A stretch of DNA of 28,330 bases from positions 1-28,330 of IMG/VR virus record IMGVR_UViG_3300025694_000023; one strand, 5' to 3'. Under the pieces are notes generated by a model, which worked only from the letters and a program-made list of their open reading frames with translations, was not told the DNA's origin and did no database searches. Source of the stretch: a virus. Within the stretch, counting starts at the first letter, position 1. Each line of letters starts with the position of its first letter. Both the position numbers and the translations under genes were made by a program. This document shows, piece after piece, positions 12,101-28,330 of the stretch.

Positions 12101-15100
12101 TGGTACTGATGGTGGTAACTTACGTGTAGATGGTTTAGGTACTGGCCAAGTGTTTCCAATAAGAAAAAGACTTAATTATGCTACAATAAAGCTATGGAGA
12201 AAAAGGACTAATCAAGTTCAAAAGAAAACTGGTAACCCTGCTGTGTGGGAAACAGAACCAAAACCTTCTATAGTTGATCTTGATTTATATTACGAGGCAA
12301 GTGACGCTTACGCAATAGCAGACCATGGTACCGAGCAAAACCTAGGTAACAATAGAAACGGCAGTAAGATATGGTATAACTGTTTTAGTTTTGGTAACGG
12401 TGTTGAATCAGATCGAATTAGAGATGACTTTAATGGCATACGTTTTGATAAAGGTGCTACCGCATCAGCAACACTTGATGAGCCTTTTGCAGAAGAAAGA
12501 AGAAAATCAAGCATAATATACTCAGGTGTATTTAACTCTACAAGTGGTGTTAATAAACTAAATCAATTTATACAAGCAGAAAAAATAACAAAAGATTTAA
12601 ATGATGCGTATGGCTCTATACAGAAGCTGCATAGTAGAGATAATGACATTACCGTTTTATGTGAGGATAAAGTATTAAAAGTACTAGCTAATAAAGATGC
12701 TATATTTGAAGCAGACGGTGACTCTAGATTAGTGTCAACAAATAATGTTTTAGGTCAAGCAGTACCTTACGCTGGTGACTTTGGTATAAGTAAAAATCCA
12801 GAATCATTTGCTGACTTTAGCTTTAGAAGCTATTTCTCTGATAAAGATCGAGGTAAAGTGTTAAGATTATCAATTGATGGTTTAACTGATATCTCTGGTA
12901 AAGGTATGGGTGATTACTTTAGTGATAACTTATCGTTAGCTGATACTGTTATTGGTAATTACAACGAAGATAATAATAGCTATAACATAACATTAAATAA
13001 TGACACTGTTAGTTTTAAAGAGGCTGTAGACGGTTGGCCAAGTAGAAAGTCTTACATACCAGAATATGGTATATCACTTAACAATACTTACTACACGTTT
13101 AACAACGGTGATCTTTATGAACACACTAATGACGTTAATAAGAATACATTTTATGGGGCTGCACAAGCAGACTCAACCATAGACGTTCTATTTAATGAAA
13201 ATAGAAACGCTATAAAGAAATTTAAAACGCTAAATTACGAAGGTGATAGTGGCTGGGTAGCAGATGAAATAACAACAGATCAAGAGACTGGCGCTGACGT
13301 TAGTTTTAAAGCAAAGGAAAACAAGTACTTTGCACATATGAAACATGTTAAGAAACATAAAGTTACAATTGACATAGGTAACAGTGATGGCGGTAATATA
13401 ATAATACCTGATGGTCAAAACATTAATATACTACCTGGTGCAACAGCTTCAACCTCATTTACATTTATTGTGAAACCAAAATCAGGTTATAAGTTTGATT
13501 CAGCGTTTACATTTGGAAGTTTTAATGAAAATTATTTAGTACCTCATCTCACAGAAGCATCAATAAATTCAGATGGTAATATGGTTATTGCTACGCAATT
13601 AAGTAGCTTTAAAATGATACCTGAAAATATTGAATTAGATTTACCACTTGTAACGTCAGGTAAAATATCTACTAACTCATTTACTTTAGCTGGTACGTTC
13701 AATAAGACAATACAAAATTCTTCTGTAAATGACATTAATGGTGGTGGTACTATATCAGCAGGCGCAGCAGATGGTTCGTCATGGACTACTTCTGGTACTA
13801 GTAATACAAGTACAACTTTAATGAATATATTAGTTACGCCTCACTCTAACCACGAATTTACAGATGATAATCTACCACAACTAATTGTGACTGGTGAAAT
13901 TAATGATAACTACGAAATAACTGGACCTACAGCTCAAGCCAACGGTTATACATTTAAAGTTGTTGGGTCAAGGGTTAATAAAAATCTTACAGCAGAAAAT
14001 ATTAAATTAATATCTAAACCAAATAAAGCTGTTAGTCTTGAGACTAATGCTATATGGGGCGCAGATATATCACAAGAAGATTTTGCTAAGGATGAAGAAG
14101 AAAGAGAGATAATAGTTAGAGGATCTGTTGGCGCACAAGTTTTGTTAGGAGCAAGTATTGTATCTTCAACAGGTACTGACCTTGCTATTAATATATTAAA
14201 CGGTAGTGGCTTTTCAACAGGTCAAAAGACGTTAACAATAGGTGATAACGGTGAAGCAAAAGCAATAATAAAGGTAACAGCTAACGGCACAAGTGGAAGA
14301 CGAAACGTGTTTATATTACTTAGCGAAACTACAGGTTACGTAATAACAGATGAGTTTGATAACTCTGATGGCGCAGATGATTCTAAAGTATTATACACTA
14401 TACCGCAGACATTGTTAGTACATATTAGTGGTTTTATGTTAGTAGCAGCGTCTCTAACGCCGCATAGTTCTTTTGGTTCACTACCAGCTGGACCAGCAAA
14501 CAGTACGCAGCATACCCTAAGCTTAACAAACAATTCAATAATAGGTACAAGTGTAGGTACAGGTGTACAAATGCATAACGTGGCTGCTTCTACTAGTCCA
14601 ATGCGACTACCTGCTAATACAGAGTTTCCTACAGAAAACAATATATTCGAGCAGACGTTTTCTCTTGCAAGAGATAATTCCGGTGACAGTGATAGTAGAA
14701 TTGTTAAAGTAGATGACCTTGATATAGAAAATGACTTCTTAAAAACTGATGGTACAAACGCTTATGATTCTAGCACCGGTAATCTTATATTAGCTAACGG
14801 TAGTATATTACAAGTTATTGATCATAGATATGGTGTTATTGGTAGTGGTGGTAGAGGCGCTATAATTATACAATTTGAAATACTTAAATATGGTACAGCT
14901 GATGACTACGTTGTTTTAAAAACACAGAACGTACTTAATTTATCTCAAAATGTTGGTGGCTCAGGTTCTACAGTGTCAACAGTAACTTTAACTGGAAATC
15001 CAACTACTTATATAGCTGCTGATATAGATGAAAGAGCTGGTAATGTATTTGCTACAAAAGCAAATAACGATCCGATAACGTTTCAGTATATTGTTACGTT

Positions 15101-15341
15101 TACAGCCGCAGCAGCGGGTAGGTTTGTTGATGAGTTTCAGGTAACATATAGTTCACTAAGTTCAAACATAGATAACAATACATCAGATGCATATCTTTTG
15201 TTAGAAAGTGGATCAGGTGATAAGTTTGGTAGAATAAAAGAAGGTGATACAGCAATAGCTAACTTTAAAGTATTAGCTGATGGAGCAATAACAGGTGGCA
15301 CAGCAGCAAGTGCAACGGTAGCAGTAAGTTTATTAAATTAA
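9144..15341 (+). CDS. Giant tail nozzle / DNA-stabilisation-type protein, 2065 aa
   Basis: The N-terminus (MPEFRREFLKSKMNKDLDE, then VPPGEYRDALNIEVSTSE) has the pattern of podoviral tail hub proteins annotated as stabilisation or nozzle proteins (P22 gp10 style), which close the tail and hold packaged DNA. Residues about 70-150 (KIYWFVTSD, AILEYDANSS, LLFFTDDNSEPKKLNI) suggest beta-propeller blades. The middle (about 430-1250) is long and mixed, with a conserved-looking RAKAQEITAGRLMYGNYLQN-type stretch near residue 430. From about 1430 the protein becomes beta-rich and Thr/Ser/Asn/Gly-rich. Two related units are visible (about 1441-1501 and 1561-1626), each with a hydrophobic-Pro start, N-x-N-Y or N-D-N-Y, and an ENIxL end. 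It is much longer than P22 gp10, so the C-terminal half may be a fused receptor-binding or surface module. No enzymatic motif was seen. Confidence 0.75.
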   Translation: MPEFRREFLKSKMNKDLDERLVPPGEYRDALNIEVSTSETSDAFAIEASNGNSKITASTVFDGYTNPKCIGAARDTENNKIYWFVTSDNKDAILEYDANSSVVSPVAVAVKATSDVFKFSENFLITGINIIDDLLFFTDDNSEPKKLNINRFKAATNGDFDTHTQIYGGNLLEEHVTTIKKYPKSSPNLSIKRTLRDGIVDSTFIDTDGDKFVEADESTTPKAIGSEIVLVLSGQPDYKENDILKVTTTDNSTVYTARVSIKSIDDISSTSQTITVILLSTSDEMLSSDKQLWNIELEEGDSFFQDKFPRFAYRWKYNDGEYSAFSPFTGVAFIPDDEDFIYNMEEGHNVNMVNNVRKITLNTFDTLPADVIEVDVLYKESNAANIYLVSTLKNKEKSITITSEQIEKTIESNQSLRPYDNVPRKAKAQEITAGRLMYGNYLQNNTFREAVKIKLTNTPTEVDRDSPQPSAKSLRTYQVGVVYLDEFGRQSPVFTGTDSSLKLDGTYADKKNTLKAKINSDAPSWATHYKYYIKENSNEYYNVIMDRFYEGEEDNFWLSFPSSERNKLTEDDYLILKKQNGKNVAFDPDEYGFKSKKYKILDIQNSPPEFIAKKKELVGELSDASTLFPNTLVGHPREGFRTFRVAGDKIGIDDSELRDLASNDNFFNQNKFIRITDITDVRASNYYQIEKVTKFDNSGGSDFNDADDYYEFTLVKKFGADVNWVGTKDSRVSGLKLQLFSEEVIIQNEEFSGRFFVKLKRDDVIAENIFGGPSDEFDQVAEAKFKLFDFNDSKAATKTLTSKQADTNILYIDDARRSDFAGAGFVIEHDLDKSGNKPTGDLAAGTAAFTVKGANGKFVEENTVVGPKKGNNRLTLRYIDYGDDRKNSDTTAPKERDFTARDDENKRITGQTDFQFHEMLRGQKGIYLSFAGDPNQHRIRIRSIKLSSVRNFNSTRRHASSANRGIRYDIVLESPIVWGPLASQTGGTDGGNLRVDGLGTGQVFPIRKRLNYATIKLWRKRTNQVQKKTGNPAVWETEPKPSIVDLDLYYEASDAYAIADHGTEQNLGNNRNGSKIWYNCFSFGNGVESDRIRDDFNGIRFDKGATASATLDEPFAEERRKSSIIYSGVFNSTSGVNKLNQFIQAEKITKDLNDAYGSIQKLHSRDNDITVLCEDKVLKVLANKDAIFEADGDSRLVSTNNVLGQAVPYAGDFGISKNPESFADFSFRSYFSDKDRGKVLRLSIDGLTDISGKGMGDYFSDNLSLADTVIGNYNEDNNSYNITLNNDTVSFKEAVDGWPSRKSYIPEYGISLNNTYYTFNNGDLYEHTNDVNKNTFYGAAQADSTIDVLFNENRNAIKKFKTLNYEGDSGWVADEITTDQETGADVSFKAKENKYFAHMKHVKKHKVTIDIGNSDGGNIIIPDGQNINILPGATASTSFTFIVKPKSGYKFDSAFTFGSFNENYLVPHLTEASINSDGNMVIATQLSSFKMIPENIELDLPLVTSGKISTNSFTLAGTFNKTIQNSSVNDINGGGTISAGAADGSSWTTSGTSNTSTTLMNILVTPHSNHEFTDDNLPQLIVTGEINDNYEITGPTAQANGYTFKVVGSRVNKNLTAENIKLISKPNKAVSLETNAIWGADISQEDFAKDEEEREIIVRGSVGAQVLLGASIVSSTGTDLAINILNGSGFSTGQKTLTIGDNGEAKAIIKVTANGTSGRRNVFILLSETTGYVITDEFDNSDGADDSKVLYTIPQTLLVHISGFMLVAASLTPHSSFGSLPAGPANSTQHTLSLTNNSIIGTSVGTGVQMHNVAASTSPMRLPANTEFPTENNIFEQTFSLARDNSGDSDSRIVKVDDLDIENDFLKTDGTNAYDSSTGNLILANGSILQVIDHRYGVIGSGGRGAIIIQFEILKYGTADDYVVLKTQNVLNLSQNVGGSGSTVSTVTLTGNPTTYIAADIDERAGNVFATKANNDPITFQYIVTFTAAAAGRFVDEFQVTYSSLSSNIDNNTSDAYLLLESGSGDKFGRIKEGDTAIANFKVLADGAITGGTAASATVAVSLLN

Positions 15342-15347
15342 AAAATT

Positions 15348-15851
15348 ATGAGTGCAACAATATCATTTAGTGAAATACCAGCAGACATAGAAGCAAAAAG
15401 CTCAGCTGGTTATAGCAGTTTTGACGTAGACGATAGAGCATATGATCTATTGTATGTTTCAGATATATCATCTGGTAGCATGGCTACACCTCATTTATGC
15501 GGTGCTATTATAGCAAAAAGTACTACTGTATTAACTATAGACACAAGTGTATACGGTACGGCAACTTATAATGCCACGTTAAATGAACATGCAATAGATT
15601 TAAAAGATGTGGTTAATATTGGTTTAGGCATATCAACAGCTAACAGTAGCGAGTGGGACAGTGGGTCTTGGCCTTTTACCGTCACAGGCGCAAGAGGTAA
15701 CCATTACTTTTTTGTGGTTAAAGATAAAGTAGCACAAAGCAATGGCTTACTAGGTTATTACATGCAAGTTAAGATGCGACTAACACCTGGTAGCAGTAAA
15801 AAGACTGAATTATTCGCTGTAGGTAGCGAGATATTTGAAAGTAGTAAATAA
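15348..15851 (+). CDS. Small beta-rich virion protein, unrecognised
   Basis: I do not recognise a family. The 167-aa product reads as a beta-rich globular protein (MSATISFSEIPADIEA, VTGARGNHYFFVVKDK, GLLGYYMQVKMRLTP), with no signal peptide, coiled coil or membrane segment. It starts six bases after the giant tail protein and lies just before the internal-core type genes. A tail accessory, fibre or virion-surface role is the simplest guess from context. Codon use is like that of its neighbours. Confidence 0.6.
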   Translation: MSATISFSEIPADIEAKSSAGYSSFDVDDRAYDLLYVSDISSGSMATPHLCGAIIAKSTTVLTIDTSVYGTATYNATLNEHAIDLKDVVNIGLGISTANSSEWDSGSWPFTVTGARGNHYFFVVKDKVAQSNGLLGYYMQVKMRLTPGSSKKTELFAVGSEIFESSK

Positions 15852-15877: not shown

Positions 15878-16639
15878 ATGAGTGAACAAACTAGAGCGCT
15901 GAATCAAGCAATGGGTGCAATTCCTATTTCAAGACAAGGAAATATTCTTTCAAACATTGCAGACTTAAATCAACAAGTTGCTGATCGAGGTGGTGTTGAT
16001 AAAATATATGGTACAGAAAAAGAAAACAAAACAAGTATGTTAGGAGATTTATCAAGTGGACAAGTAGGAGCAATAGGCCAAGGCATTGGAGGTCTAGCTA
16101 GTATAGCATCTAGTATAGTAGGTGGAAGAGCTAGAAGACAAGAACAGGCACAAGCTAGAGATGCGTACAGAAACAGGATGTCGTCGTTTGAACAAATGAA
16201 TTATTATGGTAGTCAACCAATAAACCCATTTGCAAACCTTACTGTTAATCAATTACAAGCTCAATTTCAAGCAAGACAACAACAACAAATGGCAGCCAAC
16301 ACAATGGCACAACTTAGAGGCGCAGCGGGTGGATCAGGTATAGCCGGTTTAGCTCAAACATTATCACAGCAGCAACAAGGCAACCTAGCACAAATAGCTG
16401 GTGGTATAGGTCAGCAAGAAGCTACAAACCAAATAAATATAGCTCAGGGTGAAAACATTAGATTTCAAGCACAACAAGCAGCTGAACAAAGAGTAAGAGA
16501 TAAAAACGAAACCTTATTAGCGTTAGCAACACAGAGAAAAGCAATAGCTGATCAAGCAAGAAAAGACGCTACAGAAGCATTAGTCGGTGGTATAGGTAAC
16601 GTAGCAGGAGCAGCGTTAAGTTTTGTAGGCGCAGGTTAA
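15878..16639 (+). CDS. Internal core / DNA-ejection protein, T7 gp14-like
   Basis: The 253-aa product is Gln/Ala/Gly rich. A hydrophobic Gly/Ala/Ile segment lies near residues 67-83 (GIGGLASIASSIVGG) and a second at the extreme C-terminus (about 234-253, GGIGNVAGAALSFVGAG). Between them are long Gln-rich helices (QLQAQFQARQQQQMAAN) and a Gly turn (LRGAAGGSGIAG) that recalls the 'GESGLEGSSM' turn of T7 gp14. Proteins of this shape are carried inside the capsid and inserted in the host envelope on infection to build the ejection channel. It is the first of three consecutive genes in the T7 gp14-gp15-gp16 order. Homology is inferred from composition and order. Confidence 0.66.
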   Translation: MSEQTRALNQAMGAIPISRQGNILSNIADLNQQVADRGGVDKIYGTEKENKTSMLGDLSSGQVGAIGQGIGGLASIASSIVGGRARRQEQAQARDAYRNRMSSFEQMNYYGSQPINPFANLTVNQLQAQFQARQQQQMAANTMAQLRGAAGGSGIAGLAQTLSQQQQGNLAQIAGGIGQQEATNQINIAQGENIRFQAQQAAEQRVRDKNETLLALATQRKAIADQARKDATEALVGGIGNVAGAALSFVGAG

Positions 16640-16650
16640 AATAAAAAGAT

Positions 16651-18267
16651 ATGGCATTAGAATCAACGAGTATATTATTACAACAGCAAAAAGCATTAGG
16701 TGATGCTAACAAGTTTGTAGACTATAGCGAAACTATTAATAAAACTTTAGGCAAAGCTATAGAAAAAGAAGTAGAAATACGTAAGAAAGCAGAAGATACA
16801 TACTCTGAAACTATGACAGCGTATGAAATAGAGAGGCTACAAACAGATGAGTATCCAGAAGACTGGGGACCACAAATGACAGCTGAGTTAAGTAAACAAA
16901 AACAAGAGTATGCTGAGGCCGCACAAATTGTTAAGACAACAAGAGATAAGACAAGTAAAGAGTATATCGATGCTGTAGCTAAAATGTCTAAGTTAAAGGT
17001 AGGCATGTCTGGCATGAGAACCAAAATAGGCTTGTGGAAAGAAAACGCGAGAGAGTTTGCTCAGTTAGCTGAAGAAGGAGCTATAACAGAAGGTTTAAGT
17101 GTAAACGAAAGAAATAAACTACTTGGTTACAATAACTCTAAAAATACAAAACCAGTTTTTAGAGATGGTAGGTTTGGTGTTGAATACAATTGGATTGATA
17201 AAGATGGTAACCCACAAACTAGCACAGCTTACGAAGGTGAAGAGCCTAGAGTTGTTGCACCTGCAACAAAAGAAATAGAAGCTATGAATGCTAAATATAA
17301 CGATGCTGTTAAGCTTATAGGTGAGGGTAAATGGAACGAAACAGCATGGACACAAGACGTTAGAAACTTCACTAACACATTAAACTTTGATCAGTTAAGA
17401 AGTTTTGCCGGTGATTTTGAATCGGTAAATGGCTTACAAACATTTGATGATATAGAGTTTGTAAAAACAAGACAAGAACAATACGAAAAAACAAATCCTG
17501 ATTCTGATTTTGGCAAGTGGTGGCAAGACCCTGCTAATAAAGGTGAATTAAAAGAAGGTATAACTCAGTTTTTTAAAGACACATATTTACCTAAATTTAG
17601 AGCTTTTAAAGTAGAGCAAGAGGCAACGGGCAGAAGAAACCAAGCTTACAATAGAGCTTTAGGTGGTGATAAAAACGCATTTAATGTATATAAAACAATG
17701 CAAATAAATGATGATGTTAGAAGGATGCTTAGTAGCCATAACGTGCCAAATGGTGAAGATGGTAAACTGTATATAAGTCAAATAGAGACTGTATTTAATG
17801 GTGCTGGTTTAGTTGATGCAGACGGTGCACCACTTAACATTGGATTTATACCTGCAAGTATGGATACAAAAGGTGTAGATGTTACAACAGGCGGATACGA
17901 AGATGTTGTTAGCTTAGTAGAACAAGCAAGAAAAACTGGTAGATACGATGCAAACATAAGAGGTGATGAAGCAGGTAGATTTAAACAATCAATATATGAT
18001 GTAGACTCTTTAAAGGCTGGTGATTCTATAGTTATATACCCAAGTGAAATAAGAACAGCTGGTGACGAACAAACAACTAGAGAACAAAGAGCTAAATATA
18101 AACCTTCAGTTATAACGATACCAGCAGGTTTAAACAGTAGGCGATCAATAGAAGCTTTCTTTAGAAAAGCTTACAGAGACTCTTTTGAAAATATGATTGT
18201 TGATGACGCATACATATCAGGACAAGGTGACGGCACAACGCCAGATAATCCACTAGTAACAGAATAA
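16651..18267 (+). CDS. Internal virion protein, T7 gp15-like by position
   Basis: The 538-aa product is polar and mostly helical. The N-terminal third has long charged helices (KAIEKEVEIRKKAEDTYSE, AELSKQKQEYAEAAQIVK). A short beta-like insert (FRDGRFGVEYNWIDKDGNPQ) follows near residue 170-190. The rest is mixed helix with NGEDGKLYISQIETVF and a late VITIPAGLNSRRSIEAFFRK. No signal peptide, membrane segment or catalytic motif is visible. It lies 11 bases after the gp14-like gene and one base before the giant gp16-like gene. This tight block suggests a virion-internal tube or ejection component. I would not claim homology to T7 gp15 without a profile search. Confidence 0.6.
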   Translation: MALESTSILLQQQKALGDANKFVDYSETINKTLGKAIEKEVEIRKKAEDTYSETMTAYEIERLQTDEYPEDWGPQMTAELSKQKQEYAEAAQIVKTTRDKTSKEYIDAVAKMSKLKVGMSGMRTKIGLWKENAREFAQLAEEGAITEGLSVNERNKLLGYNNSKNTKPVFRDGRFGVEYNWIDKDGNPQTSTAYEGEEPRVVAPATKEIEAMNAKYNDAVKLIGEGKWNETAWTQDVRNFTNTLNFDQLRSFAGDFESVNGLQTFDDIEFVKTRQEQYEKTNPDSDFGKWWQDPANKGELKEGITQFFKDTYLPKFRAFKVEQEATGRRNQAYNRALGGDKNAFNVYKTMQINDDVRRMLSSHNVPNGEDGKLYISQIETVFNGAGLVDADGAPLNIGFIPASMDTKGVDVTTGGYEDVVSLVEQARKTGRYDANIRGDEAGRFKQSIYDVDSLKAGDSIVIYPSEIRTAGDEQTTREQRAKYKPSVITIPAGLNSRRSIEAFFRKAYRDSFENMIVDDAYISGQGDGTTPDNPLVTE

Positions 18268-18268
18268 A

Positions 18269-21200
18269 ATGAAGGAGACTATATTTGAGTTTTATCGTCA
18301 ATATGCTCCAGACGTTAAGATTACTGATGATAAAATTAACGAGATAGAGACGTATTACAGAGGCGATGTAAATAGATTTATTAATGACTTTAAGAAAAAA
18401 GTCACTGACCCAAAGGGCATAACTCTTGACAGACAAGAGTCAGCCGCTATTGGTGCAAGAATATATAGAGCATATGAAGAGGCTGATGTAGATGCTGTAA
18501 TAGAAAACGAAGAAACAGAAAGAAGATTACAAACTAAAGAAAAAGTTAAAGTCGATCCCGACATAGATCCAACAGAATTATTGGATAATTTTTATGATGG
18601 TACAAAAACACTCACACAAGACTACCATCATGTCAAACAATTACTTTCCCCATACGGTTTTAAAGTTAAAAAAGGTAACAGCTACAGCGAGACAGAGAAA
18701 CGTCTTATGGAAGCTGGTAGTGTAATGAACGCTCAGTTTAGTGTTGAAGGTAAAAGATCTTTAATAATAACTGCACCTAACGGTAAAGAGCAAACCATAC
18801 TACTTGATCCTACTGATCAAAACAAAAACAAAGAAATACTAACAGAGTTTTTTAACGCTAATGTTGATAGAGACTCTGATGCTTTTAAAAAAGGACAGTC
18901 AAAAATTAGATCTGTATATAGCGAGATAGGTAGAGATTACTATGACGCTGTTAAGTTAACTGACGCAGAAGAAGACGCTGTAATAGCATCTGCAAAAGAG
19001 GTAAACCTATTTGAAGTACAAACAAGTAGAATGCCTGGAACAGCACCTGGTACTCAAGTAACAACTACTTACATGCCGTATAAAGAAATTATTCAACAAG
19101 CAAAACTTTATTTAGCTGACAAAGAAGATAATAAAAACCCAACAAACGAAGATATAGAAAGAATAGCTAGGCAACTATACACACGTAAAGCTCTGTTTGA
19201 TAAAAGAGCAGCTAAGGGTGATAAGTACTTATCAGACATAGGTAAAACTGAGATCTTTTCATCCTCTACAGGACTTCCAGTTTTTGATTCTGAGGCGGAC
19301 CTTGAAAAGCAAGCGCAAGTGTATATAGGTGGTAAAGCTTTAGAATCATCGGCTGCAAAAAATCTTGAAAGTAGAATAGAAACTGTTGACTTGTTAAATC
19401 AAAACTTTGACGCTGACCCAGATGTTGTTGCATTAAATACTTTATTAGACAAGTATGATGAGCATGAAAACTCTCAGCAAATGATGTACAGCATGAATGA
19501 TGGTGATAGAGAAAGACTTAGAGTTTTAAGTGAAAGAGTTAGTGGTAAAATATTTGATATCGATGCTGAAAGCAGAAACATATTAAGTAGTATTGATTAT
19601 GTTGAAAACACATCTGAACAATTAGAGGTTGCTAGAAAATCATTTAATATGACCAAAAGGTGGTTTGATAAATTTGATCAAGCAACAGATAGAACTATAA
19701 ATGACTTATGGACATTTTGGGGTAGAACAGCATCAGATGTAGATATGATATTAACAGCTGCTTCTAAAGCAGGTAAAGATGGTGGTGAATCACTAGAAAA
19801 AACACTATTTGAAGGTGGTGAACAAAACTCTGACTGGTTTAAAAAAACTTTTCCATCGCTATCAGACGAATCTATAAATAAGTTTAATATTGAAAGGCAA
19901 AAGCAATACCAAAAAATAGAAGGTAAATATAGAGAAGGTGTAAAAGATATTGGCACCGCGTTTCAAAAGGGCCGTGTTGGTGAATTAGCTTTTGATATGA
20001 TTGCTGATTTTTTACCTATAGTTGGTACTATAGCTTTAACCTCTTTCGCAGGGCCATTAACTGGAGCTGCAAGATTTGGTAGTATGATGGGATTAGGTGG
20101 TGGTGCTAGAAGATCAGAGTATGACTTCGACGAATATATAAATCCAACAGCTGGCAAAACATCATTAGCACAAAAAATGTTTATATCCGCTGGTCATGGT
20201 TTAGCAGAATACGCGGGTGAAAGGTTAACAACATTTAAATTAGTTGATAATATGATATCACCTAGAGGTTTACCTAGAATAGGTAGCGATGAGGTGATAA
20301 AAGCACTTGCACCAACAGGTAGAAAATACTTGCAAAAAAACTTTCTATCAGCTGTTCCACTTGCTTTTGGAGCTGAAGGTTTAGGTGAAAGCGCTACTCA
20401 AGTAATGCAAAATGTTTTAGATAAAAGACCAATAATGGAAGGTGTACCTACAGCTTTTTTTGGTGGTATGATTATGGGTGGAGGTATGGGAATTGCAAGT
20501 ACACTTCACGGCGCAGCTATAGCAAGCACTGTTGATAGTAAAACAAGAGATGGTTTAACAAAACAATATGAAGGCTTTCACAATGAAGTTAGTAGATTAG
20601 ATGATCTAAGAAGAAGGCAAAATGATTTTAAATCTAGAACTGGAATTGACTCTAAAAAATATGACGAGTTAATTGAAGCGCAAAAAAAGAAAGTACAAGA
20701 GTCAGCTGATGCTTTAGATAAACAATATAAAATTTTAATACCTGAACTACCAGCTTTTAACAAAGCAATATTGGGTCAGATAATGCGACAAGAAGCTCTC
20801 ATAAACCAAAAAAGACTAGAGTATGAAGCTTTAGAAAAGCAGTACAAAGATGGTGAAATAACAGCGGCAGAGCTTGATACTAGAAAACTAGAGATTGAAG
20901 TTGAGCTTGCTAAAGAAGATGGACTTATTGCTCATCTTGATGCAATAAAAAGTGGTAAGCTAAATCAATTTAAGCTATTAAAAGATTCTAAAGACAAGCA
21001 AAATGAAGATAAATATGATCAGTACATTGATGCCGCAAAAGCTGAAGGTGTTGAAAATGTTGAAGCTAGAGCTGAAGAAATGTTCTACGAAGACTTACAT
21101 GATAGTCAAGTTTTAGTATATAAAAAAATAGCAAAAGAGCATAATAAAAAGAAAGGTAGAAGATATGACATGGAAGTTAAGTCCATGACAAAAGAGCAAG

Positions 21201-24200
21201 CTATAGAAAGAATAAAAGAGTCTGACAAAACAGAAGCTGAAAAAGCAGAGATAATAAGAAATATTAGAGAGGGCAAACAAAATGGTATACAGCTTGATTC
21301 TACGAATAGTAACGGCCAAAATATTAGAACAGCAATATCTATAAAAGAAAACGCAGTTAAAAATAGAAGAGCGTATACAATGCCACATGAGGTTATTCAC
21401 GCTGTTGTTGATGACGCTTTAACATTTGATTCAAGCAAAGGTGTTGATACAGCTAGAGAAGCAGAAATATCAGACGCTATAAAAGAGTACACTAAAAACG
21501 CGTTGCCTGATATATACGAGCAAATAAAAGATCAAAGTCAAGTTGAAGTTATTCCAATGTTCTTTGAGTATTTCTTAGCAAATAAACATAAGGTTAAAGA
21601 CCACGCTGCTTTCTTTGGCGGATTTGCTGGTGCTGTTGTACCTCAAATAGATTTTAACAATGCTGCGGAGTTGTTAAGATATTTTGATTCTTTTGTACAG
21701 TATAATCAAAAAAGATCATCACTAGAAAAAGCTAGAAGAGCAGAACCAAAATTTAGTTTACAAGAAGATCCTAAAGGCTTTGCTAGAAGAAGAGATAAAA
21801 TGAACAATGCTGTTGAGAGAATAATGCAAAATTATAGAGACTCAAGAGTTGGAAGAGAAGAAGATGAACTTGTTGATGATTTTGTTTGGAACGAAGAAAT
21901 AGCAGCTGAAGTTTTAGCGTTTGCAATCGAGAATAAAATTTTAGATACCTACATACTAGGTAAAAGGCCTATGGGTATATCACCTACACAATGGATAAAC
22001 GACGTATATACTGAGTTTATAAGTGTTTCTAATAACTATGACGGTAGAATAAAAGATGCTGATGGTAGAGCAGATTACTTTGGTTGGCTAATGGGTAACT
22101 TAGGCTACCAAGCACTTGATGTTACTAAATCAGTAATTAAAGAGCAGCAACAAAGAGCGAAGACAGTTGACATAGATGAAGCAAGAGGTATAGCCGCTGA
22201 AATAGGAGATACAGTAGAAGACTTTGGTTTTACTGAGGTTGCTGAAAAGTTAGGTGTACCGGTAGAAACAATTAAAGAGTTAACTAAGTTAGTACAAGGT
22301 GAGTTAGGTAGGTTTACAAAGGATATTACAGAGGGTGTCACACTTAATAGAAGTATATCGCCTTTGTTTCAAACATTAAATGCTAGGTTTGCTCAAGCTA
22401 CAGCTAAAAACCCAGGTGGTGGTAACTGGAGAGTAATAGCACCTTTATTAAAAGACTTAAAATCTTTCATAGAAAATAATACAGCTACAATGCTAAATGA
22501 AGTTAGCACTGAATATGCTGCTAAGAACATACCACAGATAGTACAAAAATCTGTTAATGGTGAGTTTATATCGGACTGGCAAGGTAAAAAAATAGACAGA
22601 CAAAGTAAAGCTGACACGGGTAAAACATCTGGTCCACAGATAATGAGAAAAGATAAGCAAGGTATAAGAAATCTTATAAGAAATCCACAAGCTTTGTTAG
22701 ATATATTCTTACCTAATAACAAACCAAGTCAAGCTAAAAAAGAAGGTTTAGCTATTAATTTATCACAAAGACTAGCAAGAGAGATATTACAAAATGATTT
22801 ACTTAACTATATAAAAACAGGTAGCTTTAAAAACTCACCTATAGCAGAAAGACTAGCAAAAACACAAAGCTTATTTGATAGAGTTATAAGCGAAGCTAAA
22901 GCAGCTGAAATAGTAAGGCAGAGTGATAGAATAAAAAATAGTGTAGAAACATTAGCTCCGCCTGATAGAATAAAAGTATTTGAAGTTAACGATCAAATTG
23001 TTGAGCTAATAAGAAAAGGTGTTGATGTTGAGGCTGCTGTAAGGCAACTATTAAGGTTTGGTGATAAAAAAATGTTGCAAGTGGCAAAAGCATATAGTAG
23101 TGTTATCGCTAAGTATGGTGACTTTACAAAGCTAGCAAAAGCAGAAAGATCTAAAATAAAACCAGGCGTTGTTACATTAGAAGATTTTATACAGCAAGAG
23201 TTTGCTGATATAGTAAGTGATGATCTAATGTTTGGTAAATATGTAGATAAAATAGCTAACTTAGAAAAAGATTTAAATGCTTATCATCTTGAAGATGGTA
23301 GAGTAGAAACAGCAAGAAAAACAGACAAGAAGTTTATAAAGAGCTTAATGAAAGAATTTAACAACGACCCTAAAGAAGTTGCTAAGTTTGTTTTAAAGTT
23401 TATGAAGGGTCACACAGCTTCAGCAAGTCAAATATCAAACAAAGCTTTTGGTATTATTGATGGTATACTTAGTATAATTGACAAAGATAGAGTTGGCGCA
23501 AGGTCAAGATTTCAAAACTACCAGAATGTAGACGAGATGCTAAACACGTTATTACGTGATAACCTTGGCATGCAAATTACTAAAGTAAATAAGTTAGGCA
23601 AGCGAGAAGGTGGTTATGAAATAACATACGAAGGTCAAGATGTATTCTTAGGTAATTCTGAAATAAAATTAAACCCAATAGAGTCAAAAGCTGTAATAAA
23701 AAATAACATAACTTACGATCAAAGCAAAACTGAAGCCGACGAGCAAACAGCTGCTATGTTTAAATATCTAGACTTCTTAAACAAACAAAGGGGTAATAAC
23801 TACGATGATATAGATTTTATATTAGCATTACAGTCTTTAAATAGCAACATGCAAACTATGTTGCGTAGATCTGCGCCATACACATATAAGTTTGTAGGTG
23901 ATTATACAGGTGCGTTAAGATATGAACATATAATACCTGCTGGTTATATATTAACAAACATAGCTGATCATTACTTAAACAAAGGAAAGACAAAAGCAGA
24001 TCTTAAAAAGTTAATGTCTAAATATGAAGTTGCTATTATACCAGAGACTATGGATAAGCAGATACCTATGGGATCGTTAATGGCTAGAGGTTATCAAGCT
24101 GGTGACAATGCTTTGGCTAATAGATATTATACTATAGCAAATTTTGGCAAAGACAATTTTTATCCTGTAAAAAATATAAATAACGGTGATGTGTTTGGTG

Positions 24201-26953
24201 ACGTGTTTAGTAAAAAGTCATTACAAAGGCTAAACATAAGAGCAAAAAATAGCGTTGAAAAACGATCAGATTCTAAAGCAGCACAACACTTTGTTGTTGC
24301 TATGAAAAAATCAATTGATCCTAACGCAAAACAAAAAGGCGCTAGCGTTATAGACTTTGATGACACGTTAGCTAAAACTACTTCTAAGGTGCTTTACACG
24401 CTTCCTAACGGAACTAAGGGTAAAATAGATGCTACAGAGTTTGCAACACGTTCTGAAGCCTTAGAAGCTAAAGGAGCAGATTTTGATTTTAGTGAATTTA
24501 CTAAGGTAAAAGCTGGTAAACGTGGACCTTTTTTTGGCAAAGCACAAGCATTAAAAGATAAGTTTGGTAACACAGATATATTTGTGTTAACAGCAAGGCC
24601 ACAAGATGCTGCACCAGCTATACAAAAGTTTTTAAGTGGTATAGGTTTAGACTTAAAAATAGAAAATATAATTGGACTAGAAAATGGTACGCCACAAGCT
24701 AAAGCAGACTGGATAACTAGCAAGGTAGCAGAAGGTTATAATGATATATTATTTGCTGATGATGCTATTAAAAATGTTAAAGCAGTAGCCAATGTACTAG
24801 ATATGTTTAACATTGGTGGTAAGATATATCAAGCAAGGCAAAAGTTTAGTAAAGAAGGATCAACAGAAAAAACATTAGATAAAATATTAGACGAAAATAA
24901 TCCTGATAGTGACGTTGCAGGTAGAACTGTAGATGAAACAGAAGCAAGAGAAAAGGGTAGACCTGGTTTTTGGTTAAAAGAACTATTTAACTTTAGATCA
25001 AAAATTAATCAAATATTTATTCCACCGTCTGCTGAAGATTTAAAAGGGTTATGGGACAATCACATAGCTGGTAAAGGTAGAAAAGGTGAGTCTGATAAAG
25101 TGTGGTTTGAGGAAACTATACTAAGGCCTTATGCTAGAGCAGAACGTGCACTTGATAGAATTAAGTTAGCCATTAGAGATGGCATGGTTAATCTAAAGAA
25201 AATGTACGGTAAAGACTTTGTACAAGATTTATACAAAGATGCTATGCCAGAGTTTACACGTATGGATGCTGCTAGAATATATTTATGGTGGAGAGCAGGA
25301 CATGATATACCTGGTGTAACAACAGAACAGTTTGATAAGTTATTAGATTATGTAATGAAAGATCAGCAACTAAAGAACTATGCTGATAATGTTTTTGAAT
25401 TATTAAACGATAACATAAAACCCGCGTTAGTACCTTTATTTGAATTGTATCCACCACCAACACAATACTGGAAACAACAAGATATAAACTCTGATGTAGA
25501 ATTTGTGTTTAAATTTATACGACCAAGTATACATCAAGAATTCATTGACAATAGATACAATGTGTTTACACCTGAGATGATGAATAAGATTCAAGCTATA
25601 TATGGCACTCAGTTTAGAGAGGCATTAGAAGATATATTCTTTAGGATGGAAGAAGGTGTTAACAGGAACGCTAGTCAAATAAATAACCCTTGGATTAAGT
25701 GGTTAAACTTTGCTACAGGTAATATAATGTTTGTGAATATAAGATCAGCGTTGTTACAGTCTATATCAGCAACAAACTTTATAGAGGTTACTGGACCTAA
25801 TAACTTATTTAATACGCTAGCTAGAGTTATGGATAGAAAACAATGGGTTGCTGATTTTACAGCACTATGGAACTCAGAGTTTTTAAGAAACAGAAGAGGC
25901 AGAGGTAAAATAGATATTGTACAAGAAGAGATACAGCGTACTGTAGCATCTGAAAAAGATCCATTCTTACGTTTAGCTAGCATATTACAAAATAAAGGTT
26001 ATGCGCCTACTAGGTTTATGGATAGTTTAGCTATAGCATTTGGTGGTGCGGCTTATTATAGAAACCTTATTAATGATTATGTTAGTAAGGGTATGGATCA
26101 GGTACAAGCAGAGAGAACAGCTATGAGAGACTTTAGAGAAAAAGCTGAAGCCTCACAGCAGTCCGCAAGAGCTGATTTAATATCTATGCAACAAGCTAGT
26201 GTTATGGGTAGAATATTCTTAACGTTTCAAAACGTTACAATGCAGTACACAAGGTTAGGTAAGAAAGCACTTAATGACTTTAAAAATGGTAGAAGAGTTA
26301 AAAACGCAGATGGTACATTTAAATCTTTACGTGATAGTAGGTTAGAACAAGCTTGGCAAATGTTTCAGTTTATGGCTTATCAAAACTTATTGTTTGCCGG
26401 TTTACAAAAAGCTATAATACTTATGTTTGCTTTAGGTGAAGGTGAAGAAGTTGAAGAAAAACAAAAGATAGATTACTTAAACGCAGCGCTAGATTCTATA
26501 TTAAGAGGTAGTGGTATAGTTGGTGGTATACTATCAGTAGTTAAAAATATAGGTATTGAAATAGCAAGAGGTAACAGGCGAAATTTAGATGTTAAAGTAT
26601 TAGAAATATCACCTACAATATCTACTAAATTTAGAAAAGCAGCTAAGATAATTAATGCTATAGGTAAAGGTAATTATAAAGATTTATTAATTGAAACACC
26701 TTCATTTATTTATGGTCTACCAACTGATAGAATAGAAAGGTTAATAAGACAAATAGAAGCTGGTGTTGATTTACACGATCAGGGATATAAATCATACGAA
26801 AGAATACTAATGAGCTTAGGGTGGTCAACATATGACTTTGGTCTGGCCAAACCTCCAACTGTTTTAGATATATTAGATTTAAGTGAAAAGACAACGAAAA
26901 AGCCAAAAGGTAGAGGCGGTAGAAAGGGTAGAACAGGTAGAAAAAACAGGTAA
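18269..26953 (+). CDS. Giant multidomain internal virion / ejection protein, 2894 aa, with zincin and HAD domains
   Basis: Unbroken over 8.7 kb. Regions in order: helical N-terminus (1-560); Gly/Ala hydrophobic segments (about 572-620, 725-755), candidate membrane-inserting parts; coiled coil (about 769-895); zincin motif HEVIH (H1040, E1041, H1044) with candidate third ligands E1093 or E1100; PKFSL at 1160-1164; HTH-like EVAEKLGVPVETIKEL near 1323; EHIIPA near 1886; a HAD phosphatase domain (about 2020-2180) with DFDDT (D2029, D2031), T2108 in LTARP, K2145 and a DD pair (D2164, D2165); conserved-looking C-terminal regions (about 2330-2350, 2629-2676); hydrophobic segments (about 2695-2730, 2738-2770); and a basic Gly/Arg tail. 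By position it matches T7 gp16, but I see no lysozyme-like domain. It fits the 'polyvalent protein' theme of enzymes carried into the host with the DNA. Activity is inferred from motifs. The ATG follows A-rich sequence one base after the previous stop. Confidence 0.85.
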   Translation: MKETIFEFYRQYAPDVKITDDKINEIETYYRGDVNRFINDFKKKVTDPKGITLDRQESAAIGARIYRAYEEADVDAVIENEETERRLQTKEKVKVDPDIDPTELLDNFYDGTKTLTQDYHHVKQLLSPYGFKVKKGNSYSETEKRLMEAGSVMNAQFSVEGKRSLIITAPNGKEQTILLDPTDQNKNKEILTEFFNANVDRDSDAFKKGQSKIRSVYSEIGRDYYDAVKLTDAEEDAVIASAKEVNLFEVQTSRMPGTAPGTQVTTTYMPYKEIIQQAKLYLADKEDNKNPTNEDIERIARQLYTRKALFDKRAAKGDKYLSDIGKTEIFSSSTGLPVFDSEADLEKQAQVYIGGKALESSAAKNLESRIETVDLLNQNFDADPDVVALNTLLDKYDEHENSQQMMYSMNDGDRERLRVLSERVSGKIFDIDAESRNILSSIDYVENTSEQLEVARKSFNMTKRWFDKFDQATDRTINDLWTFWGRTASDVDMILTAASKAGKDGGESLEKTLFEGGEQNSDWFKKTFPSLSDESINKFNIERQKQYQKIEGKYREGVKDIGTAFQKGRVGELAFDMIADFLPIVGTIALTSFAGPLTGAARFGSMMGLGGGARRSEYDFDEYINPTAGKTSLAQKMFISAGHGLAEYAGERLTTFKLVDNMISPRGLPRIGSDEVIKALAPTGRKYLQKNFLSAVPLAFGAEGLGESATQVMQNVLDKRPIMEGVPTAFFGGMIMGGGMGIASTLHGAAIASTVDSKTRDGLTKQYEGFHNEVSRLDDLRRRQNDFKSRTGIDSKKYDELIEAQKKKVQESADALDKQYKILIPELPAFNKAILGQIMRQEALINQKRLEYEALEKQYKDGEITAAELDTRKLEIEVELAKEDGLIAHLDAIKSGKLNQFKLLKDSKDKQNEDKYDQYIDAAKAEGVENVEARAEEMFYEDLHDSQVLVYKKIAKEHNKKKGRRYDMEVKSMTKEQAIERIKESDKTEAEKAEIIRNIREGKQNGIQLDSTNSNGQNIRTAISIKENAVKNRRAYTMPHEVIHAVVDDALTFDSSKGVDTAREAEISDAIKEYTKNALPDIYEQIKDQSQVEVIPMFFEYFLANKHKVKDHAAFFGGFAGAVVPQIDFNNAAELLRYFDSFVQYNQKRSSLEKARRAEPKFSLQEDPKGFARRRDKMNNAVERIMQNYRDSRVGREEDELVDDFVWNEEIAAEVLAFAIENKILDTYILGKRPMGISPTQWINDVYTEFISVSNNYDGRIKDADGRADYFGWLMGNLGYQALDVTKSVIKEQQQRAKTVDIDEARGIAAEIGDTVEDFGFTEVAEKLGVPVETIKELTKLVQGELGRFTKDITEGVTLNRSISPLFQTLNARFAQATAKNPGGGNWRVIAPLLKDLKSFIENNTATMLNEVSTEYAAKNIPQIVQKSVNGEFISDWQGKKIDRQSKADTGKTSGPQIMRKDKQGIRNLIRNPQALLDIFLPNNKPSQAKKEGLAINLSQRLAREILQNDLLNYIKTGSFKNSPIAERLAKTQSLFDRVISEAKAAEIVRQSDRIKNSVETLAPPDRIKVFEVNDQIVELIRKGVDVEAAVRQLLRFGDKKMLQVAKAYSSVIAKYGDFTKLAKAERSKIKPGVVTLEDFIQQEFADIVSDDLMFGKYVDKIANLEKDLNAYHLEDGRVETARKTDKKFIKSLMKEFNNDPKEVAKFVLKFMKGHTASASQISNKAFGIIDGILSIIDKDRVGARSRFQNYQNVDEMLNTLLRDNLGMQITKVNKLGKREGGYEITYEGQDVFLGNSEIKLNPIESKAVIKNNITYDQSKTEADEQTAAMFKYLDFLNKQRGNNYDDIDFILALQSLNSNMQTMLRRSAPYTYKFVGDYTGALRYEHIIPAGYILTNIADHYLNKGKTKADLKKLMSKYEVAIIPETMDKQIPMGSLMARGYQAGDNALANRYYTIANFGKDNFYPVKNINNGDVFGDVFSKKSLQRLNIRAKNSVEKRSDSKAAQHFVVAMKKSIDPNAKQKGASVIDFDDTLAKTTSKVLYTLPNGTKGKIDATEFATRSEALEAKGADFDFSEFTKVKAGKRGPFFGKAQALKDKFGNTDIFVLTARPQDAAPAIQKFLSGIGLDLKIENIIGLENGTPQAKADWITSKVAEGYNDILFADDAIKNVKAVANVLDMFNIGGKIYQARQKFSKEGSTEKTLDKILDENNPDSDVAGRTVDETEAREKGRPGFWLKELFNFRSKINQIFIPPSAEDLKGLWDNHIAGKGRKGESDKVWFEETILRPYARAERALDRIKLAIRDGMVNLKKMYGKDFVQDLYKDAMPEFTRMDAARIYLWWRAGHDIPGVTTEQFDKLLDYVMKDQQLKNYADNVFELLNDNIKPALVPLFELYPPPTQYWKQQDINSDVEFVFKFIRPSIHQEFIDNRYNVFTPEMMNKIQAIYGTQFREALEDIFFRMEEGVNRNASQINNPWIKWLNFATGNIMFVNIRSALLQSISATNFIEVTGPNNLFNTLARVMDRKQWVADFTALWNSEFLRNRRGRGKIDIVQEEIQRTVASEKDPFLRLASILQNKGYAPTRFMDSLAIAFGGAAYYRNLINDYVSKGMDQVQAERTAMRDFREKAEASQQSARADLISMQQASVMGRIFLTFQNVTMQYTRLGKKALNDFKNGRRVKNADGTFKSLRDSRLEQAWQMFQFMAYQNLLFAGLQKAIILMFALGEGEEVEEKQKIDYLNAALDSILRGSGIVGGILSVVKNIGIEIARGNRRNLDVKVLEISPTISTKFRKAAKIINAIGKGNYKDLLIETPSFIYGLPTDRIERLIRQIEAGVDLHDQGYKSYERILMSLGWSTYDFGLAKPPTVLDILDLSEKTTKKPKGRGGRKGRTGRKNR

Positions 26954-27327: not shown

Positions 27328-27789
27328 ATGATTAGCAAGCACGTTAGTATGCGCGAAGGTAAGTACAGCATAACAGCAAAACGCCTTGGCTTAGAAAACA
27401 ATCCAACTGAAGAACATCTTAACAATATGAAGATGTTAGCTGTAAAAGTATTTGAACCACTCAGAGAGTGGGTTGGTGGTCCTGTCAGGATAAATTCATT
27501 TTATCGTGGACCAGAATTAAATAAAGCTATCGGCGGTAGCAGCAAGTCACAACATTGTAATGGTCAAGCGGTTGACATAGATGATGTGTATGGGCATAAG
27601 ACAAACGCTGAGATGTTTAACTTTATAAAAGATAATTTACAATTTGATCAGATGATTTGGGAGTTTGGTGACCACAAAAATCCTGACTGGGTACACGTAA
27701 GCTACGTTAACCCGGGTGAAAATAGAAACAGATGCCTAGTAGCATTTAGAAAAGACGGTAAAACTCAATACGCAAATTACGCAGCTTGA
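27328..27789 (+). CDS. M15-family zinc peptidase, probable endolysin
   Basis: The 153-aa protein is a single-domain D-Ala-D-Ala carboxypeptidase/endopeptidase-like enzyme of the M15 (M15_3-type) group, which cuts peptide bridges of peptidoglycan. The motifs are clear: RINSFYRGPELNKAIGG, then SQHCNGQAVDID with H76 and D83 as candidate zinc ligands, then DWVHVSY with H123 as third ligand and D120 as candidate catalytic acid, where many relatives have Glu. There is no signal peptide, so it would need a holin or similar route. It is compact, as usual for phage enzymes of Bacteroidetes and marine hosts. Neighbours are one-TM and lipoprotein genes, so a lysis cassette is the natural reading. A tail-associated role at entry is less likely given the position. 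Confidence 0.88.
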   Translation: MISKHVSMREGKYSITAKRLGLENNPTEEHLNNMKMLAVKVFEPLREWVGGPVRINSFYRGPELNKAIGGSSKSQHCNGQAVDIDDVYGHKTNAEMFNFIKDNLQFDQMIWEFGDHKNPDWVHVSYVNPGENRNRCLVAFRKDGKTQYANYAA

Positions 27790-27905
27790 TTAAATGGAAC
27801 AACGTAAAGCCTGAAGACAAGGTGGTTGGAATTATATTTTTTCTACAATGCGCTTTGCTTGTAGCTATTTTAGTATTACATTACATTTATAAAATTTGGA
27901 CATGA
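27786..27905 (+). CDS. 39-aa one-TM protein with TTG start, overlapping both neighbours; holin-like candidate
   Basis: The frame starting at TTG 27786 overlaps the stop of the peptidase gene (TTGA) and ends with TGA overlapping the ATG of the next gene (ATGA). The 39-aa product has a polar, charged N-terminus (MIKWNNVKPEDKVVG) and one hydrophobic stretch (about 16-34, with FFLQCALLVAILVLHYIY). The competing ATG at 27794 gives only six codons. Overlaps at both ends and a clear TM segment argue that this is real; its length and rare start argue for caution. In a lysis cassette it could be a small holin, holin regulator or i-spanin. Confidence 0.5.
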   Translation: MIKWNNVKPEDKVVGIIFFLQCALLVAILVLHYIYKIWT

Positions 27906-28330
27906 CAGAAAAACAAAGAAACTTAGGGAGATTAATAACAATAGGAGCACTTGTGGGTGTTTTATTAGCAGGCGCGCTATCAAGCTGTTCACCTATGTTA
28001 TACCGAGGGATAGATCATAATCAAGTAATGGTCACACATGTACTTGCTTTAACTAAAATGGGTGACACCGTTAAGATAAAAATAGATCAAATAAGACCAC
28101 AACAAACTTATAATGTTGTTGGTTACGACTTTGTTAGATGGCAAGATAATAGATATTATAATCCATATAATGATTATAGGTATGATTACAGATATCACGA
28201 TAGTAGGTGGAGATATCATGGTAAAGCAAATGGCACATATGGTTATGTAATACCAAACCCAAATAATAATAATAACGCACCTATCACAGTGGGTAACGCT
28301 GGTGGATCACAAAGCTATGGTGGTAACACA
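27902..28330 (+). CDS. Lipoprotein, o-spanin candidate (partial, cut by right edge)
   Basis: The 143 visible codons run to the window end without a stop. The N-terminus has a short basic part, a hydrophobic core (about 11-25) and a lipobox LSSC with C29 as the lipidated residue. Ser follows the Cys, not Asp, and no acidic export signal follows, so the expected site is the periplasmic face of the outer membrane. The mature part has a beta-like stretch (MVTHVLALTKMGDTVKIKID), then a striking Tyr/Arg/Asp/Asn-rich region (about 80-106, with DYRYDYRYHDSRWRYH), then an Asn/Gly-rich tail. Its position after the peptidase makes an outer-membrane spanin the first guess. A host-type surface lipoprotein with a superinfection-exclusion role is an alternative. 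The start overlaps the preceding stop. Confidence 0.72.
   Translation, partial: MTEKQRNLGRLITIGALVGVLLAGALSSCSPMLYRGIDHNQVMVTHVLALTKMGDTVKIKIDQIRPQQTYNVVGYDFVRWQDNRYYNPYNDYRYDYRYHDSRWRYHGKANGTYGYVIPNPNNNNNAPITVGNAGGSQSYGGNT

Follow-up and report, generated by a model that had tools for sequence, protein, structure and literature searches.

What does an unbroken 8.7-kb gene at the end of a podovirus virion module encode, and at which stage of infection would its product act? We addressed this question for the window, the whole 28,330-base virus record analysed here (IMG/VR record IMGVR_UViG_3300025694_000023, positions 1 to 28,330), in which one gene encodes a giant protein of 2894 residues. 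Sequence comparison and structure prediction together indicate that this protein combines a complete zincin site and a complete HAD phosphatase site with a helical C-terminal body that is conserved among its relatives. We read it as a virion-associated cargo protein of the polyvalent type, carrying a processing protease and a nucleic-acid end-healing phosphatase, in an uncultured podovirus related to phages of Flavobacteriaceae, and put the probability of this reading at roughly 0.55.

The giant protein and its relatives

18269..26953, plus strand: giant protein, 2894 residues

The gene is a single open frame with an ATG start and no internal stop, as a previous description made from the letters alone (hereafter the sequence-only reading) had stated. 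Pfam yields no match to the giant at E ≤ 1, an NCBIfam scan of the whole protein returned nothing meaningful, and the sole PHROG match of the whole protein (phrog_2115, 'tail protein', 0.0057) was not used. Four further contigs (L010, L014, L016 and L022) carry whole homologues, their open frames spanning 2819–2896 codons from stop to stop; identity over the alignment to the window giant is 78% for L010, 50% for L014 and 90% for L016. Searching viral contigs with the HAD and C-terminal body confirmed at least 479 stretches of the 600 listed, and searching with the C-terminal body alone confirmed at least 571 of the 599 listed, these being stretches rather than distinct contigs; the best 80 loci of each search were kept for the counts below.

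The sequences behind alignments A6 and A7 had been selected by the HExxH and HAD motif I patterns, and the 81 rows of an earlier zincin set had been filtered for a His at the first column (5/86 dropped), so that these residues are invariant there by construction. We therefore recounted on 80 open reading frames (ORFs) chosen by the C-terminal body alone, of which the 70 with more than 1000 residues upstream were counted and the 10 with 1000 residues or less were dropped. HExxH is present in 70/70 of these chains, the zincin profile aligns to 69/70 and a HAD, recognized by its motif I pattern upstream of the body, is found in 67/70. The HAD lies 788–1461 residues after HExxH in one chain (n = 90).

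A broader count covers 89 relatives, taken as distinct ORFs of at least 2000 residues. Distinct here means not identical, so that near-identical chains remain (L042/L046; L095, L102 and L103), and the two sets have some contigs in common. Most of the shorter ORFs dropped from this count are cut by contig ends. Two frames with a HAD and a C-terminal body are short and uncut (L039, 8354–12541; L076, 8741–12178), and possibly represent split genes or frameshifts.

A zincin site is invariant within a fast-changing domain

21041..21835, plus strand: zincin-like metallopeptidase domain, residues 925–1189
21386..21400, plus strand: HExxH motif, residues 1040–1044
21545..21547, plus strand: third zinc ligand, Glu1093

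The HExxH motif proposed by the sequence-only reading is unlikely to be fortuitous: it arises in 1.6% of composition shuffles of the window giant, and is present in 88/89 relatives against 0.73 expected by shuffling. Among the 69 profile-aligned relatives, chosen without reference to the motif, the two histidines (H1040, H1044), the catalytic glutamate (E1041) and the downstream glutamate ligand (E1093) of a gluzincin-like site are kept in 69/69, and G1006 in 68. In the earlier set, E1041, H1044 and E1093 are invariant in all 81 aligned rows and G1006 is kept in 79. An iterated profile search from the window zincin reached 81/94 N-terminal halves, those of 250 residues or less having been dropped. 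The exception among the 89 relatives, L072, carries HDxxH at residue 868 of its giant ORF, a possible change of the catalytic Glu.

The AlphaFold model computed from A6 (69 sequences, mean column identity 16%) reached a predicted local distance difference test (pLDDT) score of 83.7 and a predicted template modelling (pTM) score of 0.75, and shows the zincin order of an N-helix, three strands, a HExxH helix and a Glu helix; HExxH lies within helix 113–127 of the model, and Glu169 within helix 167–180. A second look with VIA placed one zincin family, anthrax lethal factor, in rows 1–17 (Z 6.3–6.9) and other toxin components or copies in rows 18–23 (Z 5.3–6.0), the first entry outside the toxin group appearing at Z 4.8.

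The contrast between an invariant active site and rapid divergence around it (16% identity in A6) would also suit a protease that is injected and cleaves a host target of defence or takeover, as would the nine relatives missed by the zincin profile, in which other HExxH sites, three of them near-identical, fill the slot. Such a host-directed effector is possible, though we doubt it: near-universal presence in one slot fits self-processing equally, and the target is putative. The substrate of the protease may be the phage's own protein and not one of the host.

The HAD domain resembles the 3'-phosphatase of T4 Pnkp

24326..24868, plus strand: HAD phosphatase domain, residues ~2020–2200, T4 Pnkp 3'-phosphatase-like

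Conservation bears out the full set of HAD motifs noted in the sequence-only reading. The motif I pattern at residues 2029–2034 occurs in 0/1000 shuffles of the window giant. Across the 67 HAD-bearing relatives of the C-terminal-body set, Thr2108, Arg2110, Lys2145, Asp2164 and Asp2165 (motifs II–IV) are kept in 67/67, and D2029 and D2031 in 53 of the 54 HADs in which the column is occupied; the other 13 rows are gapped there, and 13 is also the number of HAD-bearing ORFs of this set with a nested kinase. In alignment A4, which contains 17 homologous HADs, motif I, T108, K145 and D164–D165 of A4 are invariant.

Both the closest fold and the family match point to a polynucleotide kinase/phosphatase. 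Entries for T4 Pnkp occupy VIA rows 1–3 at Z 10.9, 10.2 and 9.6, the top match having a root-mean-square deviation of 2.6 over 120 residues, and phrog_415 ('polynucleotide kinase') matches 17/17 HADs (best 1.5e-7); Pfam DUF2608 matches 15/17 and Pfam HAD 4/17, all weakly. The HAD is therefore better described as resembling the nucleic-acid 3'-phosphatase of T4 Pnkp than as a protein phosphatase. Sequence searches of the PDB with alignments A1, A2, A3 and A4 retrieved no HAD and no zincin.

An apparent group of seven relatives with a broken HAD was rejected: in six, an inserted domain comes after motif I, which is found ~115–220 residues ahead of the part that aligns, and the seventh, L067, carries DFDQT, which the search pattern missed. 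L174, L178 and L192 combine a zincin and a C-terminal body and have no HAD.

Exceptions of this kind might suggest that the enzyme domains are structural relics devoid of catalysis, given HDxxH in 1/89 relatives, a missing HAD in 3/70 and a missing motif I Asp in 1/54 HADs. We regard this as very improbable, since the catalytic residues are otherwise invariant in 69 and 67 relatives, respectively, while their surroundings change.

Some relatives carry a P-loop domain nested within the HAD

In 15/80 of the C-terminal-selected ORFs, and in 13/70 of the longer ones, an inserted P-loop domain separates HAD motif I from the remainder of the HAD. Fifteen non-identical inserts across both sets all keep a Walker A motif, a following Asp, a DGTG Walker B motif and an Arg-rich lid, which we presume to play the usual roles of these elements. 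The two inserts scanned each match Pfam AAA_33 at 5e-13, and Zeta_toxin at 4e-10 and 9e-11; the L105 insert matches phrog_12810 (unknown, 1e-20), phrog_2071 (ATPase, 1.5e-10) and phrog_505 (polynucleotide kinase, 8e-9). Matches to NCBIfam bacter_Pnkp (0.001–0.003) fall far below its cut-off. The nearest PDB sequences are 4gp7 (0.0099), titled Metallophosphoesterase, which we take to be a bacterial Pnkp kinase, and mammalian PNKP (0.19). Relatives of the insert stand alone in Pelagibacter phage HTVC008M and Methylophilales phages and form part of a larger protein of Agrobacterium phage Atu_ph07, all annotated as hypothetical. From these sequence matches, a polynucleotide kinase is a plausible identity for the nested domain. 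L083 and L090 carry a different domain at the same insertion point, that of L083 with a weak ART-PolyVal match (0.042).

Together, these data bear on whether the HAD acts on nucleotides or signal molecules, for instance in counter-defence against nucleotide second messengers, rather than on DNA or RNA ends. HAD folds are versatile, the listed VIA rows below T4 Pnkp (Z 7.2–9.5) are nearly all HAD-fold proteins, and the nested kinase matches Zeta toxin too. We nevertheless consider a small-molecule substrate unlikely, as a single enzyme, T4 Pnkp, fills the first three structural rows, and two separate 'polynucleotide kinase' PHROGs match the HAD and the nested kinase. Our preference for nucleic-acid ends stems mainly from the fold match to T4 Pnkp and from the kinase nested in relatives.

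The C-terminal body and the remaining segments

24899..26950, plus strand: helical C-terminal body, residues ~2211–2894
26876..26950, plus strand: basic C-terminal tail, last 25 residues
23924..23941, plus strand: EHxxPA element, residues 1886–1891

The C-terminal body is supported by alignments A5, A7 and A9, by its helical model and by matches in BFVD, against which a Foldseek search with an 896-residue model of the HAD and C-terminal part returned 50 matches at E ≤ 0.001. The top four hits (E 1e-54 to 1e-35) all come from uncultured viruses and are either uncharacterised or loosely named, one as 'UDP-N-acetylglucosamine kinase'; public databases therefore already contain relatives of the giant, with no function described for them. 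Among the 50 listed rows, seven are named polyvalent or PolyVal (E 5e-7 to 4e-4, TMq 0.29–0.48) and one is an Elemovirus 'Structural protein' (5e-4).

The basic Gly/Arg tail of the sequence-only reading persists as charge rather than as sequence: the last 25 residues have a net charge of at least +4 in 75/89 relatives, and the sequence itself is not conserved. Two further segments proposed there did not stand out from shuffled controls. As for the supposed insertion into membranes, the most hydrophobic window N-terminal to the zincin scores 1.66 against a shuffled mean of 1.39; only 17/86 relatives attain 1.6, and the median of the family (1.41) does not exceed the shuffled mean (1.46). The heptad signal at residues 765–905, described as a coiled coil, is reached by 89/300 shuffles.

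The EHxxPA element lies ~140 residues ahead of HAD motif I and might signal an additional domain; the pattern EHxxP[ASTG] is found in 38/91 N-terminal halves, counted after removal of rows with a HAD start below 700.

By tblastn, GenBank phages yielded no family member and only weak or single-domain matches: the window giant has one weak match (0.007), its HAD has one to a 462-kb metagenomic phage (0.02), and neither the zincin slice nor the C-terminal halves of two relatives have any. A search of bacterial genome contigs with A2 gave 82 candidate stretches with no relative among them, and hence no prophage was seen.

Constraint differs along the chain

Comparison of the window giant with L014 and L022 shows that four-fold degenerate sites differ by 0.32–0.53 in all regions, the counts for the zincin region being small (11/21 and 6/19). 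Amino-acid identity is 0.86–0.87 in the HAD, 0.73–0.80 in the C-terminal body and 0.32–0.34 in the zincin region, which makes the HAD the most constrained of the ten stretches compared. Recent recombination was rejected as the cause of HAD conservation, since L014 and L022 differ strongly at four-fold sites and yet retain this identity.

L010 and the window giant form a mosaic: they are 42–67% identical before residue 1160 and 95–99% identical from residue 1450 on, where four-fold differences are 0.06–0.16. Judging from these few four-fold changes and this sequence identity, the similarity from residue 1450 on is a recent exchange.

Gene order places the giant at the end of the virion module

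765..3173, plus strand: portal protein (phrog_6547, E 2e-139)
9144..15341, plus strand: crassvirus-muzzle-related tail protein, 2065 residues (Pfam crAss_MUZ_C, E 3e-8, above cut-off; phrog_14478, E 2e-148)
15348..15851, plus strand: g10, virion-module gene (profile match to phi18:3 gp115, E 6.3e-14)
15878..16639, plus strand: g11, virion-module gene (profile matches to Gundel_1 gp072, E 4.9e-10, and phi38:1 gp099, E 6.9e-6)
16651..18267, plus strand: g12, directly upstream of the giant (profile match to phi18:3 gp121, E 1.3e-10)
27328..27789, plus strand: M15-type endolysin, downstream lysis gene (Pfam Peptidase_M15_3, E 2.6e-15; phrog_894, E 2.4e-30)

The order in the window is muzzle, g10, g11, g12, giant, a weakly holin-like gene and the M15 lysin, the giant being the last gene of the portal-to-muzzle virion module and starting one base past the end of g12. 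Both matches of g11 are annotated as virion structural proteins. Matches to the genes for the portal, the terminase and the capsid module come from Flavobacteriaceae phages (Elemovirus, Pervagoviridae and Pachyviridae), from Maribacter phage Panino and from an unassigned Manatee Spring phage. The muzzle-domain gene occurs in a podovirus lineage next to Pervagoviridae and Pachyviridae, with homologues in phi38:1, phi18:3, Elemovirus, Panino and Gundel_1. A partial ORF at the window end (27896–28330) has a weak VirB8 match (0.011).

The module is collinear with that of Cellulophaga phage phi18:3, in which gp114 (muzzle), gp115 (g10) and gp121 (g12) precede the giant gp123, and the record notes of all four proteins mention tandem mass spectrometry (MS/MS). 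Because the same slot in phi18:3 encodes an MS/MS-noted protein after these genes, we infer from gene order that the window giant is virion-associated. In the text available of PMC8776804 and PMC7077304, the term 'mass spectrometry' does not occur behind the 'structural protein' labels of Gundel_1 and Elemovirus; PMC7077304 does not name Elemovirus in that text and may not be the source of the Elemovirus records.

We compared giants of named phages with our profiles; the E-values of our own profile searches refer to small local databases, here one of 10 proteins with filters off. Elemovirus elemoF gp18, which occupies the slot of the giant, contains a zincin that matches profile A6 at 5.4e-15 and no HAD motif. 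In Tenacibaculum phage Gundel_1, gp074 gives a match to the C-terminal body at 1.8e-12 and contains a HExxH with a weak A6 match and no HAD motif, and the MW202828 giant has two HExxH motifs with only weak A6 matches and no HAD. The giants of Panino, phi38:1, phi18:3, phi19:3 and phi46:3 contain neither motif in this comparison, and phi18:3 gp123 has no detectable similarity to the window giant. Local matches of profile A1 to phi38:1 gp101 (1.2e-6), elemoF gp18 (4e-6) and Gundel_1 gp074 (6e-6) fall in charged helical stretches, are weak and were not used. The slot-equivalent 1829-residue giant of Panino (L002, 13229–18718) is annotated as a putative 'tRNA methyltransferase'.

The elemoF zincin without a HAD, together with HExxH being more universal than the HAD (70/70 versus 67/70), would suit an assembly or maturation factor whose zincin acts only before packaging, trimming the giant or its partners, and whose HAD stays in the producing cell or acts in replication. 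There is precedent on both sides in the available text of PMC5512222: DdrB of phage P1 is cleaved before packaging, whereas the virion RNA polymerase (vRNAP) of phage N4, which has a similar domain, is said to be packaged unprocessed. The HAD, moreover, is kept fused to the zincin in 67/70 relatives, 788 or more residues downstream and up to 1461, in one chain. On balance, an assembly role seems to us improbable.

Comparison with known phage proteins

T4 Pnkp is a small enzyme with a kinase and a phosphatase in tandem. It shares with the window giant the HAD core and the four motifs; it differs in that the HAD of the giant sits within a very long chain and, in some relatives, has the kinase inserted inside it.

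The sequence-only reading had invoked the polyvalent proteins, and this assignment holds at the level of the class, while the enzymes required refinement. According to the accessible text of Iyer et al. 2017 (PMC5512222), polyvalent proteins combine several unrelated enzymes in one giant chain encoded among virion genes, and their metallopeptidase (MPTase) consists of an N-helix, three strands, a HEXXH helix and a helix with the Glu. The window giant likewise has at least two unrelated enzymatic domains, the predicted MPTase core order, a late location among virion genes and domains shared with such proteins (the BFVD rows); it differs by its Pnkp-like HAD and its lack of a Pfam match. The main text of that paper, as available, contains 0 occurrences of 'haloacid', 'phosphatase' or 'polynucleotide kinase', and 'had' only as a verb; it also notes a lethal-factor resemblance for the N4 vRNAP domain.

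The partial text of PMC12633501 describes N4 vRNAP gp50 as a giant ejected chain in which domain C1 is zincin-like, with HExxH, and domain C2 is large and helical. This architecture is similar by description, but the window giant has no polymerase match in Pfam or among PDB sequences and has a HAD instead. In crassviruses, cargo proteins gp45–gp50 are encoded after the muzzle gene and three are RNA polymerase-associated (PMC10172136, available portion); the window giant likewise follows a gene with a muzzle C-terminal domain, a positional likeness. The same holds for T7 gp16, a very large protein late in a podovirus virion module with whose position the sequence-only reading had compared the giant: the likeness is of position, identity with gp16 is not supported, and the lytic transglycosylase of gp16 was found by none of the Pfam, NCBIfam and PDB sequence searches, in agreement with the sequence-only reading, which saw no such domain.

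In summary, the window giant seems to be a polyvalent-type virion protein by class, and what seems new is that a Pnkp-like phosphatase is part of the pair, how widely this pair occurs, and that the phosphatase can have a kinase nested in it. A literature search with sparse coverage of subscription journals found no description of a zincin and a Pnkp-type HAD in one phage protein.

A proposed cargo protein for genome entry

Several observations weigh against a packaged, end-healing cargo protein. The zincin score (Z 6.9) lies in a range where chance resemblance is possible, and Foldseek against the PDB returned nothing at E ≤ 0.001 for either the zincin model or the HAD and C-terminal model, the latter being of moderate quality (pLDDT 71.5). 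The HAD of the window itself matches phrog_415 only at 0.0018, and one of the 54 HADs with an occupied column lacks both motif I Asp residues in the alignment. The window giant has no kinase insert, and the inserts of its relatives match an unnamed PHROG, an 'ATPase' PHROG and Zeta toxin better than polynucleotide kinase families. Packaging is read from gene order, the giant in the same slot of phi18:3 shares neither motif nor detectable similarity with that of the window, and the family is known from sequences rather than virion proteomics. Set against these points, the profile and fold checks that had been suggested for the two enzymes support both, through conservation and predicted fold.

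Zincins perform zinc metallopeptidase chemistry, and HAD enzymes transfer phosphate through an aspartyl intermediate. As a virion-associated cargo protein, the giant would travel in the head or tail of the particle and be ejected alongside the DNA, as is thought for crassvirus cargo proteins. Its fast-evolving zincin would cleave its own polypeptide, or a host protein, before or during entry, and the slow-evolving HAD would strip the 3'-phosphate from DNA or RNA ends that have been damaged. The P-loop kinase nested in some relatives may contribute the corresponding 5'-kinase, and entering genomes or host tRNAs cut by defence nucleases could thereby be resealed. A more specific proposal is a virion-packaged end-healing machine, consisting of a Pnkp-type 3'-phosphatase and, in some lineages, a 5'-kinase nested between the nucleophile motif and the cap, which would be delivered with the genome, freed by its own zincin, and would undo defence-made strand or tRNA breaks before phage gene expression; we hold this proposal to be speculative and quite unlikely as it stands.

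The pairing of a zincin with a HAD is a recurring architecture, present in 67/70 of the relatives examined, and links a large and hitherto unnamed phage gene with an enzyme class already known. Should the phosphatase be delivered at entry, breaks inflicted by host defences would be repaired from before the onset of transcription.

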